Of a stretch of DNA of 45,847 nucleotides, positions 39,177 through 45,847 are shown one piece after another (within the stretch, counting starts at the first letter, position 1; every line of letters starts with the position of its first letter). The notes under the pieces are model-generated. The model was not told the origin of the DNA. It did not search any database and was given only the letters and a program-made list of their open reading frames with translations. This DNA is from a bacterium (GTDB taxonomy: Bacteria > SZUA-79 > Acidulodesulfobacterales > Acidulodesulfobacteraceae). Position numbers and translations under genes: made by a program. The DNA lies in contig JAJYPL010000009.1 of NCBI GenBank assembly GCA_021795355.1, positions 1 through 45,847 on the forward strand, in the 5' to 3' direction.

Positions 39177-39211
39177 TTGACTTAATTTTTTATCGGATAT
39201 ATATTTATAAT
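39177..39211 (+). promoter_or_regulatory. Promoter of the kdp leader
   Basis: TTGACT (39177-39182), 17 bp, TATATT (39200-39205), with a second TATAAT at 39206-39211. Transcription would start near 39212-39218, a few tens of bases before the riboswitch aptamer. Confidence 0.65.
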
Positions 39212-39241
39212 AAATTACATCATTGCTCGTGTAAAAATAGT

Positions 39242-39378
39242 TCTTTGAAATTTAAAGCTTAGTTCCCTTGCATAAAAAAGGGAAGCGGAGAAACCAATAT
39301 TTAGGGGCGAATATCTTTTCGATAGAGGAATACTCTTTATCCTTAGCCCGTCAGCTAACTTCGTAAGCTATTAAAGAG
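39242..39378 (+). promoter_or_regulatory. c-di-AMP riboswitch (ydaO/yuaA class) upstream of kdp
   Basis: The leader contains the conserved blocks of this class in order: GGGAAGCGGAGAAACCAA (39281-39298), AGGGGCGAATA (39303-39313) and CCGTCAGCTAACTTCGTAAG (39348-39367). Outer pairing between AAAGCTTA (39254-39261) and TAAGCTATTAAAG forms P1. This class binds cyclic di-AMP and usually turns off potassium-uptake and cell-wall genes when the nucleotide is abundant. The following genes are kdp, a known target type. The match is by motif recognition; edges are approximate. Confidence 0.88.
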
Positions 39379-39513
39379 TTTTAGATAAAGTTAAATATAA
39401 TTAGTTTATAATAAACGCAATATACGCAGATTATTCTTGAAATAAATTCAATTATATTTAATAAATAATAATGCGTCATATGTTTGCCGTATAATGTTTT
39501 GCTTATTGCTTTA

Positions 39514-39550
39514 ATAGCCGAAGGTTTCAGAACCTCCGGCTATTTTTTTT
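39514..39550 (+). terminator. Intrinsic terminator between riboswitch and kdpF
   Basis: ATAGCCGAAGGTT pairs with AACCTCCGGCTAT (one mismatch, four-base loop) and is followed by eight T. It lies about 135 nt after the aptamer and about 100 nt before kdpF, so it is the natural expression platform for transcription attenuation of the kdp operon. The 118-nt AT-rich linker presumably holds the competing pairing. The rest of the 500-bp gap shows no further gene. Confidence 0.85.
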
Positions 39551-39652: not shown

Positions 39653-39739
39653 ATGATAGAAAATATTATTCTTCTTATAGTTTCGATTTTAGTACTGGCA
39701 TATTTGTTTTATGTTTTGATATACCCCGATAAATTTTGA
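39653..39739 (+). CDS. kdpF: Potassium-transporting ATPase small subunit KdpF
   Basis: A 28-residue single-helix peptide starting MIENIILLIVSILVLAYLF and ending IYPDKF. It matches the KdpF pattern, a hydrophobic helix followed by a short Pro/acidic-Lys/Phe tail, and its length (29 in E. coli). GGAGGAGG lies 8 nt before the ATG, one of the strongest ribosome-binding sites in the window. KdpF stabilises the KdpABC complex. The conventional first position in the operon is kept. Confidence 0.85.
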   Translation: MIENIILLIVSILVLAYLFYVLIYPDKF

Positions 39740-39852: not shown

Positions 39853-39939
39853 ATGATAGCATTTTTAATCGCTTTTGCCGGCATAGCCGCAATGTATGCC
39901 GTATTATGGCTGTTTACGGATTTTATAGATAATATTTAA
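39853..39939 (+). CDS. Second 28-residue membrane peptide between kdpF and kdpA
   Basis: An ATG behind AAGGAGAG (spacing about 7 nt) opens a frame of 28 codons, MIAFLIAFAGIAAMYAVLWL then FTDFIDNI. It is a single hydrophobic helix with an acidic tail, the same length as KdpF but of different sequence. It is located 113 bp after kdpF and 40 bp before kdpA. A strong ribosome-binding site and operon position support real translation. It may be an additional small subunit or a KdpF paralogue. I do not know a named family for it. Confidence 0.6.
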   Translation: MIAFLIAFAGIAAMYAVLWLFTDFIDNI

Positions 39940-39979: not shown

Positions 39980-41704
39980 ATGACTTATACGGGAGTTTTG
40001 CAGATTTTAATAACGCTTGCGGCTATGGTTATAGCAGCGGTTCCGTTAAGCAAATATCTTGCGCATGTTTTTAACGGCGAACATACGTTTTTAGACGGGA
40101 TAATAAATCCTGCGGAAAATTTAACTTTAAAATTCTTGAGGGTTAACCAAAATGAAGAAACGGGCTGGGTTACATATTTAAAGACGGGGCTTATAGTCAA
40201 TTTCTTGATGCTGGCGGCAGTCTATTTCATATTAAGATTTCAAAATTTTCTTCCGTTTAACCAGATGCATTATCCGGGAATGCCGTGGGCTCTGGATTTT
40301 AACACGGCAATAAGTTTTATAACAAATACTAACTGGCAGAATTACTCGGGAGAACAAACATTGTCCAATTTTTCGCAGATGTCGCTTGTTTTTTTGCAGT
40401 TTACTTCCGCCGCTACGGGGCTTGTTTTTGCCGTAGCTTTTATCCGCGGGATTGTAAGGCGCGAAGCAAAATATGTAGGCAATTTTTACGCGGACTTTAT
40501 AAAAGCGATTTACAGGCTTTTTCTTCCTTTGGCAATTATATTTGCGGTTATAATGCTTTGGCAGGGCGCCCCGCAGACTTTTGTAATGCAGAAAAAAATC
40601 GTTAATATGACGGGAGTCAAGCAGAAGCTCTCGATGGGACCCGTAGCTTCTATGGTATCCATCGAAAACATAGGCACCAACGGAGGAGGTTTTTACGGCG
40701 CAAATGCCGCTCAGCCTTACGAAAATCCTAATCCTTTTACTAACGCTTTAACTATATTTATGATGGGGACTATTCCTATAGCGCTTTTTTTAATGTACGG
40801 AATAATGACAGGTAATAAAAAGCATGCTTGGACTTTATTCGCAGTTGCTATGACGCTTCTTTTGGTCTGTATAGCCGTTGTTTATTCTCAGGAGGCTCAC
40901 GGCAATCCGTTCCTTGCAAAGTTAGGAGCTAATATAAGCGTTTCTAAAAATAACCCGGGCGGCAATATGGAAGGGAAACAGGAGCATATAGGAATAGCGC
41001 AGACCTCTTTATTTGCGGCGGCTACCACGGCATTTACCACCGGCAACGTCGATTCCGCCCACGACAGTTTTATGCCTCTTTCGGGTATGGTTCTTATCGC
41101 CGAAATGATGTTGAACCTGATATTCGGCGGAAAAGGCGTCGGGCTTTTAAATATGCTCACTATGGTAATTATAGCCGTGTTCATTGCCGGGCTTATGGTG
41201 GGGCGGACGCCCGAATTTCTCGGAAAAAAAATAGAGGCAAAGGAGGTTAAGCTCGCTACGCTTGCAATGTTTGCCCACGCGTTTATTATTCTTATCCCGT
41301 TTGCTATAGCCTTAGCGATACCGGCGGGATTAGCCGGCATACTGAATCCCGGTCCGCACGGTTTAAGCGAGATTTTATACGCATATACTTCAGCGGTAGC
41401 AAACAACGGATCCGCGTTTGCGGGTCTTAACGGCAATACGCTTTTTTATAACATATCGCTTGGACTTGCGATATTTTTCGGCAGGTATATTCCTATAATA
41501 TGCCAGGTCGCAATAGCCGGTTCGTTAATCAAAAAGAAAAGCATACCGGAATCTGCAGGAACTTTTCCTGCGCACGGCTTTTTATTTTATACGGTTGTAA
41601 CGGCAACCATACTGCTCGTGGGAGCGTTAACGTTTTTCCCCGCGCTTGCGCTTGGACCCGTCGCCGAACATTTTGCGATGGTAAAAGGACATCTGTTTTA
41701 TTAA
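39980..41704 (+). CDS. kdpA: Potassium-transporting ATPase subunit A (K+ channel-like subunit)
   Basis: KdpA selects and binds K+ in the high-affinity KdpFABC pump. The 574-residue protein has about ten helices and the selectivity-loop signatures SIENIGTNGGGFYGANAA and TSAVANNGSAFAGL, plus FTTGNVDSAHDSFMPL. I use the ATG at 39980, since AGAGGTG lies 6 nt upstream; the GTG at 39971 is part of that ribosome-binding site. The size is close to E. coli KdpA (557). It is followed not by kdpB but by kdpC. Confidence 0.95.
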   Translation: MTYTGVLQILITLAAMVIAAVPLSKYLAHVFNGEHTFLDGIINPAENLTLKFLRVNQNEETGWVTYLKTGLIVNFLMLAAVYFILRFQNFLPFNQMHYPGMPWALDFNTAISFITNTNWQNYSGEQTLSNFSQMSLVFLQFTSAATGLVFAVAFIRGIVRREAKYVGNFYADFIKAIYRLFLPLAIIFAVIMLWQGAPQTFVMQKKIVNMTGVKQKLSMGPVASMVSIENIGTNGGGFYGANAAQPYENPNPFTNALTIFMMGTIPIALFLMYGIMTGNKKHAWTLFAVAMTLLLVCIAVVYSQEAHGNPFLAKLGANISVSKNNPGGNMEGKQEHIGIAQTSLFAAATTAFTTGNVDSAHDSFMPLSGMVLIAEMMLNLIFGGKGVGLLNMLTMVIIAVFIAGLMVGRTPEFLGKKIEAKEVKLATLAMFAHAFIILIPFAIALAIPAGLAGILNPGPHGLSEILYAYTSAVANNGSAFAGLNGNTLFYNISLGLAIFFGRYIPIICQVAIAGSLIKKKSIPESAGTFPAHGFLFYTVVTATILLVGALTFFPALALGPVAEHFAMVKGHLFY

Positions 41705-41732
41705 TTAAAATAATCTAAAGAGGATGTTTATT

Positions 41733-42353
41733 ATGTTAAAAGAATTGGTAAAAATGATAAAACTAACCATTTTATTATATATTATATGTTCGCTCGGCTA
41801 TACTTTTCTTATCTGGGGCATAGGAAAAATAGCCTTTCCGTTTCAAGCCGACGGGAGCATCGTTTATAAAAATTCAAAACCTATAGGCTCGATGCTTATA
41901 GGCGAAAAATTTACTTCTCCGTATATATTCAACGGAAGGCCGTCTTATGCCGGAAACGGTTATAACGGTACGGAATCCGGCGCATCCAATTATGCTCCTG
42001 CAAACGGCAAATATATTGCAATTGAGAAGAAATTAATAGATAGATTTTTAAAAGAAAATCCTTCCGTTAAAAAAGGCGGAGTACCGGCAGATATCGTAAC
42101 CGGCTCCGGTTCGGGACTAGGTCTTTATATTTCTATAGCGGCAGCGTTTGATCAGGTTGGCAGAATATCGTCGCTTACGGGAATACCAAAGGCTGTGCTT
42201 AATAATCTTGTTAAGCGCAATATATCTTACCGGCAATTAGGCATATTCGGAACTCCAGGCGTAAATACGGTAAAATTAAATTTAAAACTGTCTTTGCTTA
42301 TAAAAAAATATAATTTCAAGCTGTATAAAAATATCTTCAAAGGACTTGTTTAA
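41733..42353 (+). CDS. kdpC: Potassium-transporting ATPase subunit C
   Basis: KdpC is the single-span periplasmic subunit that raises K+ affinity of the Kdp pump. The 206-residue protein has one N-terminal helix (about 10-30) and the family segments GSMLIGEKFTSPYIFNGRPS, GSGLGLYISIAAAFDQV and GIFGTPGVNTVKLN. The ATG at 41733 has AAAGAGG at suitable distance; the ATG at 41724 abuts that site. In most bacteria kdpC follows kdpB. Here it lies between kdpA and kdpB. Confidence 0.94.
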   Translation: MLKELVKMIKLTILLYIICSLGYTFLIWGIGKIAFPFQADGSIVYKNSKPIGSMLIGEKFTSPYIFNGRPSYAGNGYNGTESGASNYAPANGKYIAIEKKLIDRFLKENPSVKKGGVPADIVTGSGSGLGLYISIAAAFDQVGRISSLTGIPKAVLNNLVKRNISYRQLGIFGTPGVNTVKLNLKLSLLIKKYNFKLYKNIFKGLV

Positions 42354-42405
42354 ATATAAGGATTAATAATTAATTTAGTTTAATTTTGAACAGAGGAAAA
42401 AAATA

Positions 42406-44454
42406 ATGTCGAATAAATCGTATTATGTTTCTGCATTCAGCAAGGATATAATGCTATCCGCAATAAAAGATTCGTTTAAAAAACTTAATCCGAAAATAAC
42501 GGTTAAAAATCCGGTTATGTTCGTAGTCGAGATCGGTTCGGTTATTACGTCGGCAATATTTATCAAAGACCTTTTCCTTCACGATTTTAAATCTGTCTCT
42601 TTTGTTTTTCAGATAACCGTATGGCTTTGGTTTACGGTTCTATTCGCAAATTTTGCCGAAAGCATTTCCGAAGGAAGAGGCAAGGCTCAGGCGGACAGCC
42701 TTAGAAGAACAAAGACCGAGGTAACGGCAAGACTGCTTAAAGAAGACGGAAAGGAAGAAAAGATAAAAGCTTCGTTGTTGAGAAAAGGCGATACGGTAAT
42801 TGCCGAATCGGGGGACACGATACCTTCGGACGGAGAGATAATAGAAGGAATCGCTTCTGTGGACGAATCCGCCATTACTGGAGAATCCGCTCCGGTAATA
42901 AGGGAAAGCGGCGGAGATAGAAGCGCCGTTACGGGCGGCACGAAGGTATTGTCGGATAAAATTATAATAAGAGTAACGTCCAATCCGGGAGAAAATTTTA
43001 TAGATAAAATGATTTCTTTGGTAGAAGGCGCTTCAAGGCAGAAAACGCCCAACGAAATAGCGCTTAATATTTTGCTTGTAATGCTTACGGCTATATTTTT
43101 AGTCGTGGTGGTTACTTTAGAACCTATGGCCGGTTATTTTCGCGGCTACATTTCTCCCGTTATATTGGTTGCCCTTCTTGTATGTCTAATACCTACTACT
43201 ATAGGAGCGCTGCTTTCGGCAATAGGCATTTCCGGCATGGACAGGCTCGTCAAGCATAACGTCATCGCTATGTCGGGAAAAGCCGTCGAGGCCGCAGGCG
43301 ACGTTAATACTCTTTTGCTGGATAAAACCGGAACAATAACTTTCGGCAACAGGATGGCCGTTTCTTTTATTCCGTCGGACGGTTCGGACGTTAACGAATT
43401 AGCCGATTATGCTCAGCTTTCGTCTTTAAGCGACGAAACTCCCGAAGGAAGATCTATAGTAACTTTGGCAAAGCAGTACGGTTTCAGGGGAAGGCATATC
43501 GACGAAAAAAATATAGAGTTTATTCCTTTTTCGGCTTTTACCAGAATGAGCGGAGTTAATCTGCTGGATAAAAAATTGCAGATAAGAAAAGGGGCGGTAG
43601 AAGCGGTTATAAAGTTCGTCGGGCAGAATAAAGGCAAGGTTTCGGATAAAACCGTAAAAACAGCGGAAGAAATTTCAAAAAAAGGCGGAACGCCTCTTGC
43701 CGTTGCGTTAAATGACCGCATGCTCGGCATTATACATTTAAAAGACGTCGTCAAGGGCGGAATTAAAGACAGAATTGACAGCCTAAGGAAAATCGGCATT
43801 AAAACCGTTATGATAACAGGCGATAATCCATTAACGGCAAAAGCTATTGCGGACGAAGCCGGAGTGGACGATTTTATTTCTGAAGCTACGCCGGAAACCA
43901 AAATGGCTCTTATAAAAAAAGAACAATCGCTGGGCAAACTCGTAGCGATGACGGGCGACGGCACTAACGACGCTCCGGCTTTAGCTCAGGCCGACGTCGG
44001 CGTTGCTATGAATACCGGCACTATGGCGGCAAAAGAAGCGGGCAATATGATAGACCTTGATTCTAATCCTACTAAACTGATAGAAATAGTCGAGATAGGC
44101 AAACAGCTTCTTATAACCAGAGGATCGCTCACTACGTTTTCTATAGCAAACGACGTGGCAAAATATTTTGCCATAATACCGGCAATGTTTGCGCCTATTA
44201 TTCCCTGGCTTGCGCCTTTAAATATAATGGGGCTTTCTTCGCCTGAGTCGGCTATACTTTCGGCGGTAATATTCAATGCTGTTATAATAATAATTCTCAT
44301 TCCGCTTGCGTTAAAAGGGGTTAAATATAAACCTGCGGCGGCATCTTCTATTTTAACTAAAAATCTTTTAATTTACGGACTCGGCGGGCTGATAGTTCCG
44401 TTTATAGGCATTAAAATAATTGATATGATAATTACCTATTTGCATTTGATTTAA
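42406..44454 (+). CDS. kdpB: Potassium-transporting ATPase subunit B (P-type ATPase)
   Basis: KdpB is the ATP-hydrolysing P1A-type subunit. The 682-residue protein has the phosphorylation site [13 protein letters not shown] with Asp306, the actuator motif ITGESAPV, the nucleotide-domain KGAVEAV, and the hinge [18 protein letters not shown]. It begins with the usual short cytoplasmic stretch and seven or so helices. GAGG precedes the ATG. It pumps K+ with KdpA under potassium limitation. Confidence 0.96.
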
Positions 44455-44493: not shown

Positions 44494-44724
44494 ATGACTA
44501 TGACTATACTTACTGCATACGGAGCATTTGTAGTTGCATTAATGGTGATTTTTTATGCCCTAGAACCAAAGGATCATATTTACACTTTTTTATTTGGACT
44601 ATCCTGCGTAGCTTCGGCTTTATACGGATTTTTGGCGGGAACATGGCCGTTCGGGATAGCGGAAATTATCTGGGGCATTGTTGCGTTTAGGAAGTGGATC
44701 AATCGCATCAAAGAACAAAATTAA
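44494..44724 (+). CDS. Small two-helix membrane protein between kdpB and kdpD
   Basis: A 76-residue protein with two hydrophobic stretches (about 8-22 and 31-48) and a conserved-looking middle, FYALEPKDHIYTFLFGLSC, followed by YGFLAGTWPFGIAEIIWGIV and a basic end. Short proteins of this look recur in other bacteria, including near kdp genes, but have no known function. It has no ribosome-binding site; TATAAT at 44481-44486 is 7 nt before the ATG, so it may have its own leaderless transcript inside the kdp locus. A link to potassium sensing or Kdp assembly is only positional. Confidence 0.72.
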   Translation: MTMTILTAYGAFVVALMVIFYALEPKDHIYTFLFGLSCVASALYGFLAGTWPFGIAEIIWGIVAFRKWINRIKEQN

Positions 44725-44753: not shown

Positions 44754-45847
44754 TTGAAAATAGAATATAACAGACCGTCGGCAGATTCGATACTTAATAA
44801 AATAAAATATTCTTCAAGCGAAACTAACGTTTTTCGGGTGTATCTCGGCGCGGCTCCCGGGTCGGGCAAAACGTTTATGATGCTTGAAGACGGGAATTAT
44901 CTCCTTGAACACGGAATAGACGTAGTTATCGGATATGTCGAGCCGCATGGAAGGAACGAAACGGAAGCCGAAATAAAAAATCTCGAGATAATTCCCCGAA
45001 AAAAAATTGAATACAGAGGGTCTATTTTTGAAGAACTCGACGTTGAGGCTGTTATTAAGAGGAGACCTTCTATTGTTTTAATTGACGAGCTTGCGCACAA
45101 TAATATTCCGGGTTCGGTAAATTTAAAAAGATATCAGGACGTCATAGAAATTTATAAAAAAGGCATAAGCGTATTTACGACTTTAAATATATTTCATCTT
45201 AATTCTATTGCCGAAAAAGTAGAATCGGAACTTGAAATAAAGGTCAGCGAAAGAGTTCCGGATTATATCTTAAATTATGTTACCGAGATTATAAACGTCG
45301 ATATTCCTGCGGGAGAATTAATAAAAAGGCTTACTTCCGGAAAAATTTATTCTAAAGAAAAAATTCAAGCCGCTTTAAATAATTTTTTTAAAATTGAAAA
45401 TCTTATAGTTTTAAGAGAGATTTCATTAAGGACTATCGCCGATGAATTAAGTGCTCAATCCAATAAAATAGGAAATCCCGACGATAAAATCGAATTAAAA
45501 TCTAACGAAAGGGTTATGGTGCTGATCAGTTCTAATCCTGATTCGGCAAGGCTTGTAAGGATTGGTTCAAAACTTGCGGGAAGGCTGAATTCCAACCTCT
45601 ATGTTCTGCATATTAATTTAAAACATAGGGAGAACAATAAATCGGAGGATTACGAAAGATCTCTTTCAAAAAATATTTCCGTTGCGGAAAATTTAGGAGC
45701 CGCAGTTTTTAGTTTTCGGGCAGACGATGTTGTTTCCGGCGTTATAGATTTTGTTAAAAGCAATAATATTTCTCATCTTGTAATAGGAGCGACAAACGAA
45801 AAAAGAAAATTTTTCGGCATATTTCCAAAGAAAAGCATAGTGAACCG
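44754..45847 (+). CDS. kdpD: Osmosensitive K+ channel sensor KdpD, N-terminal part (3' end outside window)
   Basis: The frame opens with TTG at 44754, about 8 nt after AAAAAGGG, and runs off the window, so 364 residues are visible. The KdpD sensor domain shows Walker A (VYLGAAPGSGKTFMML), IDELAHNNIPGS and VFTTLNIFHLNSI. From about residue 250 a universal-stress-protein-like domain follows (ERVMVLISSNPDSARLVRIG, LVIGATNEKRKFFG). The kinase half, if present, lies downstream. Some KdpD USP domains bind c-di-AMP, which would add a second layer to the riboswitch, but this has to be inferred. KdpE is not in view. Confidence 0.9.
   Translation, partial: MKIEYNRPSADSILNKIKYSSSETNVFRVYLGAAPGSGKTFMMLEDGNYLLEHGIDVVIGYVEPHGRNETEAEIKNLEIIPRKKIEYRGSIFEELDVEAVIKRRPSIVLIDELAHNNIPGSVNLKRYQDVIEIYKKGISVFTTLNIFHLNSIAEKVESELEIKVSERVPDYILNYVTEIINVDIPAGELIKRLTSGKIYSKEKIQAALNNFFKIENLIVLREISLRTIADELSAQSNKIGNPDDKIELKSNERVMVLISSNPDSARLVRIGSKLAGRLNSNLYVLHINLKHRENNKSEDYERSLSKNISVAENLGAAVFSFRADDVVSGVIDFVKSNNISHLVIGATNEKRKFFGIFPKKSIVN

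Follow-up and report, generated by a model that had tools for sequence, protein, structure and literature searches.

The window, by which we mean the whole stretch of 45,847 nucleotides analysed here, carries a kdp operon, and the leader elements and kdp genes described below lie on its forward strand. The first gene of the operon is kdpF (39653-39739; PF09604, 35.2 bits; TIGR02115, above its cut-off). It is followed by an ORF for a second small membrane protein of 28 aa, MIAFLIAFAGIAAMYAVLWLFTDFIDNI (39853-39939), which gave no match in Pfam or NCBIfam and is present in all the leaders examined. At a kdp locus of another phylum (L132), a similar ORF of 31 aa at about 2139-2234 lies before KdpF rather than after it. 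Next are kdpA (39980-41704; TIGR00680, 651 bits), kdpC (41724-42353; best matches to the KdpC models NF001454 and TIGR00681, below their cut-offs) and kdpB (42406-44454; TIGR01497, 1060 bits). The order kdpA-kdpC-kdpB (39980-44454) is found in the relatives too, the usual order being A-B-C. A small membrane protein of 72–88 aa that gave no family match accompanies kdp; it is encoded after kdpB in the window (44494-44724), and proteins of the same type are encoded between kdpA and kdpC at two related loci (L007, 7749-7991; L010, 7937-8203).

The last gene of the window (44754-45845) is KdpD-like, with the N-terminal sensor and Usp parts (PF02702), and is cut by the end of the contig. The best NCBIfam model for this cut copy is KdpD_non_kinase (NF038185), at a score below its cut-off. 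In the relatives in which the gene is complete, KdpD stops at 385–396 aa and has no kinase module, and at two of the loci (L003, L008) the gene that follows KdpD is unrelated and on the other strand. When the kdp loci were inspected for the marks of a KdpDE-controlled operon, neither a histidine-kinase module nor a KdpE encoded with the operon was found.

The source genome is a metagenome-assembled genome (MAG) of an uncultured organism, 1.31 Mb in size and 66% complete. It encodes two Omp85 proteins, and the host is thus taken to be diderm. It presumably belongs to Candidatus Acidulodesulfobacterales, a group described from acid mine drainage (PMC6776010). No relatives of intermediate rank are listed between those of the same family and those of the same domain, and the group thus looks like an isolated family of high rank; one near relative bears the label Deltaproteobacteria. 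The preliminary description had expected c-di-AMP signalling in this lineage and had named a diadenylate cyclase as the thing to look for. Such an enzyme is indeed encoded in the MAG: a CdaA-type cyclase lies directly before a ybbR gene (TIGR00159, 228.7 bits against a cut-off of 188.8; PF02457 with CdaA_N). The search for a DAC domain covered 19 genomes of the group and found it in 17, the two DAC-less genomes being incomplete (59% and 86%). A DHH-DHHA1 protein in L121 is at most a candidate c-di-AMP phosphodiesterase; it resembles NrnA, yet its score is below the cut-off.

The leader upstream of kdpF had been assigned from its consensus blocks to the ydaO/yuaA class, and the covariance search bore this out. 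A c-di-AMP riboswitch aptamer (RF00379) was identified by cmscan at 39246-39383 with 77.6 bits, far over the gathering score of 38 (E 1.9e-16), the match spanning the whole model (1-134). It is the sole Rfam match within the window and the sole RF00379 match in the MAG. Duplex folding together with reading of the sequence gave an extended P1 stem, in which the 5′ strand at 39251-39261 pairs with 39364-39375 and A39370 is bulged. The core blocks of the aptamer, CCCGUCAGCUAAC among them, are retained, and the alignment to RF00379 shows four non-standard pairs.

Many relatives have aptamers that score above that of the window, up to 102 bits. In genus g2 a peripheral stem of the aptamer is enlarged by a large insertion, which takes these copies below the Rfam cut-off; insertion-bearing c-di-AMP aptamers of this kind (L177-L182, L007, L010) would escape routine annotation. 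Rfam scans of four kdp loci (L005, L006, L007 and L010) had suggested that no riboswitch was there. For L007 and L010 this proved wrong, the aptamers being found by means of boxA (see below) and the CAGCTAAC..GCTATTAAAG block. At the kdp loci of L005 and L006 neither this block nor boxA was found. These two operons (L005, 5400-5850; L006, 5609-5977) stand in other gene contexts and, having neither riboswitch nor boxA, are natural controls; their KdpA proteins are 87–89% identical to KdpA of the window. The idea that the riboswitch was acquired together with kdp from acidophilic Bacillota found no support, the Bacillota kdp loci examined having no RF00379 match.

An intrinsic terminator (39513-39550) lies between the aptamer and kdpF, as the preliminary description had stated. 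Its stem (39513-39544) consists of 8 + 5 bp with one mismatch and a UCAG loop, has a folding energy of -16.4 kcal/mol and is followed by a U tract that runs to 39550. This hairpin was not detected when the region was scanned with a consensus terminator pattern, most likely because of the one internal mismatch. The distance from the end of the aptamer to the stem was computed as 129 nt, close to the 135 nt given earlier.

The 3′ strand of P1 contains a sequence that can pair elsewhere. GCUAUUAAAG (39367-39376) is exactly complementary over 10 nt to CUUUAAUAGC (39509-39518), which shares six bases with the 5′ arm of the terminator. Matches of at least 10 nt at the antiterminator position arose in only 2 of 3000 dinucleotide shuffles of the linker. 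The two halves are separated by an A+T-rich linker (39377-39508), which is 132 nt long in the window and folds into AU hairpins. The antiterminator formed by the two halves and P1 are mutually exclusive, and so are the antiterminator and the terminator. As duplexes, P1 without ligand and the antiterminator have energies of -7.4 and -12.2 kcal/mol, respectively.

The folding analysis covered the equilibrium secondary structure of the ligand-free RNA. Within this scope, folding of the growing transcript gave the antiterminator a probability of 0.91–0.98 from 39519 to 39536. The same ligand-free folding gave 0.76–1.00 in the other 17 copies described below while the 3′ arm of the terminator was missing. 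Past 39536 the terminator of the window prevails at equilibrium. In the full-length RNA at equilibrium the terminator is favoured, both in the window and in the other copies, and hence the switch must be kinetic.

Conservation of these elements was followed in 30 related genomes by a pattern search for CAGCTAACTTCGYARGCTATTAAAG in which up to two mismatches were allowed; every match was exact. The sequence occurs in 18 copies in 16 of the 30 genomes, distributed over three of six genera. CTTTAATAGC recurs at the start of the terminator in all 18, and both antiterminator 10-mers are likewise kept in 18/18. A kdpF start lies downstream of the riboswitch in 17 copies, the exception being that of G028. 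Two of the genomes carry the kdp operon twice, each with its own riboswitch (L086 and L100 in G006; L090 and L098 in G011), although mixed bins are possible in these MAGs. Linker lengths range between 57 and 404 nt: the linker measures 57–158 nt in the genus of the window, 112 nt in G019 (genus g5) and 337–404 nt in genus g2. The antiterminator halves never vary and so offer no compensatory changes in support of the pairing; two fixed 10-mers joined by a freely varying linker are the pattern expected of a long-range switch. The possibility that the linker has a conserved fold was rejected, since its sequence is common only to the close relatives of the window and its length is free elsewhere. 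The extended expression platform suggested earlier for this region thus holds in respect of the two conserved 10-nt switching halves and fails in respect of a conserved extended structure, and the distance given earlier falls within a broad span of values.

The position of the terminator, far from the aptamer for this class (the platform of the Bacillus thuringiensis kdp riboswitch takes 56 nt; PMC6488665), could be explained if the hairpin ended transcription of the upstream MFS gene or were a plain leader terminator on which the aptamer does not act. However, in the 18 copies it keeps its place between aptamer and kdpF despite differing upstream genes, and in each of them the sequence exactly complementary to the 3′ strand of P1 extends into the 5′ arm of the terminator. 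We regard this explanation as the least probable of those considered. A terminator controlled through the P1 strand is the reading that is followed below.

The 5′ end of the leader carries a further element, which is absent from the preliminary description. A candidate sigma-70 promoter, TTGACT-17-TATATT, was found by consensus scan at 39177-39205, from which transcription would start near 39212; promoter-like sites are about as frequent in this region as expected by chance, but sites resembling TTGAC(T/A)-N17-TATAWT precede boxA in most of the related leaders. The boxA, GTTCTTTGAAA (39240-39250), lies just 5′ of P1 and is present in 17/17 leaders with sequence at this place. The 17 leaders with an intact 5′ end all open just before P1 with TTCTTTGA, and the GTTCTTTGA at this place is the boxA of the lineage itself. 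From boxA to the P1 3′ strand there are 274–327 nt in genus g2 and 122–192 nt in the other copies. The leader as a whole is roughly 440 nt long and reaches about 900 nt in g2.

The identity of this element was judged from the contexts that it shares. boxA is known on rRNA and CRISPR leaders (PMC5725501, PMC7862264). Where the rRNA operons of sister genomes are assembled, G[T/C]TCTTTGAAAATTGAA lies in the 16S-23S spacer, close before 23S. The spacer boxA was read from these genomes, a 16S gene not having been found in the MAG of the window itself, and the boxA of the window matches this sequence type. It differs from the gamma-proteobacterial consensus GYTCTTTAANA (PMC5725501) at position 8, where it has G for A; this consensus belongs to a different group, and the rRNA of the lineage also has G. 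The exact extended 17-mer GYTCTTTGAMAATTRAA, to which the window (39240-39256) has one mismatch, gave 24 matches over the 30 genomes: 14 in kdp riboswitch leaders, 8 in 16S-23S spacers, 2 in CRISPR leaders and none elsewhere. With one mismatch allowed there were ~60 matches, against 8 for a reversed control pattern. A search of 188 kb of strand-bases from loci of the group gave five instances of GTTCTTTGA[AC]A, all of them at kdp riboswitches, and in c-di-AMP leaders of other phyla a boxA-like sequence was seen in 2 of 36, which is about chance. In the two CRISPR instances boxA stands 5′ of the array. In one (L212 in G001, 1501-2029) the repeat ends with AATTTCTACTGTTGTAGAT and has a spacing of 61–63 nt; in the other (L198 in G027, 1083-1517) the array repeats every 65–67 nt. 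One of the two arrays has a Cas12a-like repeat.

The last bases of boxA adjoin P1, and part of its conservation could therefore come from the stem. It might accordingly be supposed that riboswitch and terminator are valid but that GTTCTTTGAAA is no working boxA, and that descent has preserved it simply as promoter-region sequence or as the 5′ flank of P1. In the window there is indeed an overlap between its last bases and the extended stem, and the 17 copies, which come from relatives, are not 17 independent observations. Against this, the spacing between boxA and P1 varies (L086, L096) while the sequence of boxA is constant, the element lies downstream of the likely promoter at a varying distance, and outside kdp leaders the 17-mer is confined to 16S-23S spacers and CRISPR leaders, with nothing above chance in the c-di-AMP leaders of other phyla. 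A non-working boxA is thus considered unlikely. The contexts of the 17-mer, the absence of boxA from the riboswitch-less kdp operons and the chance level in other phyla together make its presence on the kdp leader well supported as a real sequence element, for which an effect on transcription may be proposed.

An aptamer, a terminator, an invariant alternative pairing, a boxA recognised by its shared contexts, kdp as target and a cyclase can thus all be read from the DNA. From them we infer ligand binding, the direction of the switch, and the loading of Nus factors with its effect. The leader is most probably a c-di-AMP OFF riboswitch that governs kdp by transcription termination, with the leader boxA loading Nus factors; we put the probability of this at about 0.8. 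This agrees with the original proposal that kdp is under a c-di-AMP riboswitch with a terminator, and adds to it the antiterminator that would compete with the terminator before kdpF. The ligand step would follow that of the riboswitch class and of the kdpFABC riboswitch of B. thuringiensis BMB171, at which c-di-AMP has been measured to promote termination (PMC6488665).

At high c-di-AMP, when potassium is sufficient, the ligand would keep the P1 3′ strand inside the aptamer. With P1 held, the terminator hairpin (39513-39544) would form and transcription would end before kdpF. At low c-di-AMP, when potassium is scarce, 39367-39376 would be free and could pair with 39509-39518 once this is transcribed; such pairing would precede synthesis of the 3′ arm of the terminator, and the polymerase would read through. 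NusB and NusE (S10), bound to boxA, would presumably join the elongation complex. The Nus complex could protect the leader, which is long, A+T-rich and not translated, against Rho or an early loss of polymerase, and/or hold the P1 region close to the RNA exit, giving the two halves time to pair over 57–404 nt. Nus-assisted folding over distance has been given as the primary role of boxA at rRNA (PMC5725501). At suhB, however, Nus factors have been shown to favour termination by Rho (PMC5725501), and their effect on the kdp leader could thus have either sign.

The opposite direction, an ON switch in which ligand-bound P1 favours read-through, is difficult to reconcile with the strand common to P1 and the antiterminator, as a P1 stabilised by ligand removes the antiterminator; the B. 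thuringiensis kdp riboswitch is also an OFF switch (PMC6488665). An ON switch is accordingly held to be highly improbable. Slightly less so, and still very improbable, is an aptamer that has decayed and lost its c-di-AMP binding, in a leader that is constitutive or answers another signal. The score of the window aptamer against those of its relatives, its four non-standard pairs and the large insertions of the sub-threshold g2 copies could be taken in this sense, but the core blocks including CCCGUCAGCUAAC are kept, the switching halves are still conserved and the cyclase is present in nearly all the genomes searched. An OFF switch with a presumably functional aptamer is the reading compared with known systems here.

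The closest known case is B. thuringiensis BMB171 kdpFABC, which the arrangement resembles in aptamer class, target operon, terminator before kdpF and a KdpD with the N-terminal part only. In the earlier study kdp riboswitches were counted in 12 species, in every one of which KdpD was reduced to its N-terminal part, and a restriction to Bacillales was concluded (PMC6488665). In the present diderm group a riboswitch-kdp arrangement with kinase-less KdpD is found in 16 of the 30 genomes. The platform of B. thuringiensis directly follows the aptamer, whereas here the switching halves are 57–404 nt apart; in the diderm leaders, the ones in which boxA was looked for, it stands at the head, and the host is diderm.

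The class had been described as best known from Gram-positive bacteria. Its use by a diderm host stands, and it is not rare in Gram-negatives: RF00379 was present in 40 of 297 genomes sampled from the phylum represented by G051, and Gram-negative use of the class is thus not in itself remarkable. The sampled targets in that phylum include Kup and APC-type permeases. One diderm locus of this phylum (L132, 1500-3129) contains an aptamer, an adjacent terminator, a small ORF, a KdpF-like ORF and kdpA; its terminator comes immediately after the aptamer, unlike the long linker of the window leader. The riboswitches of the G051 phylum share the aptamer class with the present leader but do not show boxA above chance (2/36). 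Conversely, the boxA of rRNA spacers and CRISPR leaders in this lineage is the same element as the leader boxA, but the known rRNA, suhB and CRISPR boxA sites (PMC5725501, PMC7862264) are not riboswitches, whereas here boxA heads a leader that would sense a ligand and that contains an intrinsic terminator. As judged from its sequence, the system is a known riboswitch class using standard logic; it is new for kdp in the host phylum, and its variant features are the boxA head and the nearly free length of the linker. No boxA-headed riboswitch was reported in the literature searched, the coverage of which was incomplete.

These results suggest that c-di-AMP control of Kdp extends from Bacillales to diderms, contrary to the published restriction (PMC6488665); there, too, the kdp riboswitch is accompanied by a KdpD without the kinase module. 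A boxA-headed leader would join processive antitermination and riboswitch attenuation, layers of control that are usually treated apart. It is conceivable, though we hold it at slightly less than even odds, that the leader is a composite in which boxA/Nus processive antitermination is built into the riboswitch, the Nus-modified complex carrying the sensor strand and so allowing switching over hundreds of nucleotides. If this is true, the boxA clients of this group would include the riboswitch as a third class, beside rRNA and CRISPR arrays. With this arrangement it can be tested how leaders whose switching halves lie far apart escape premature termination and fold in time.
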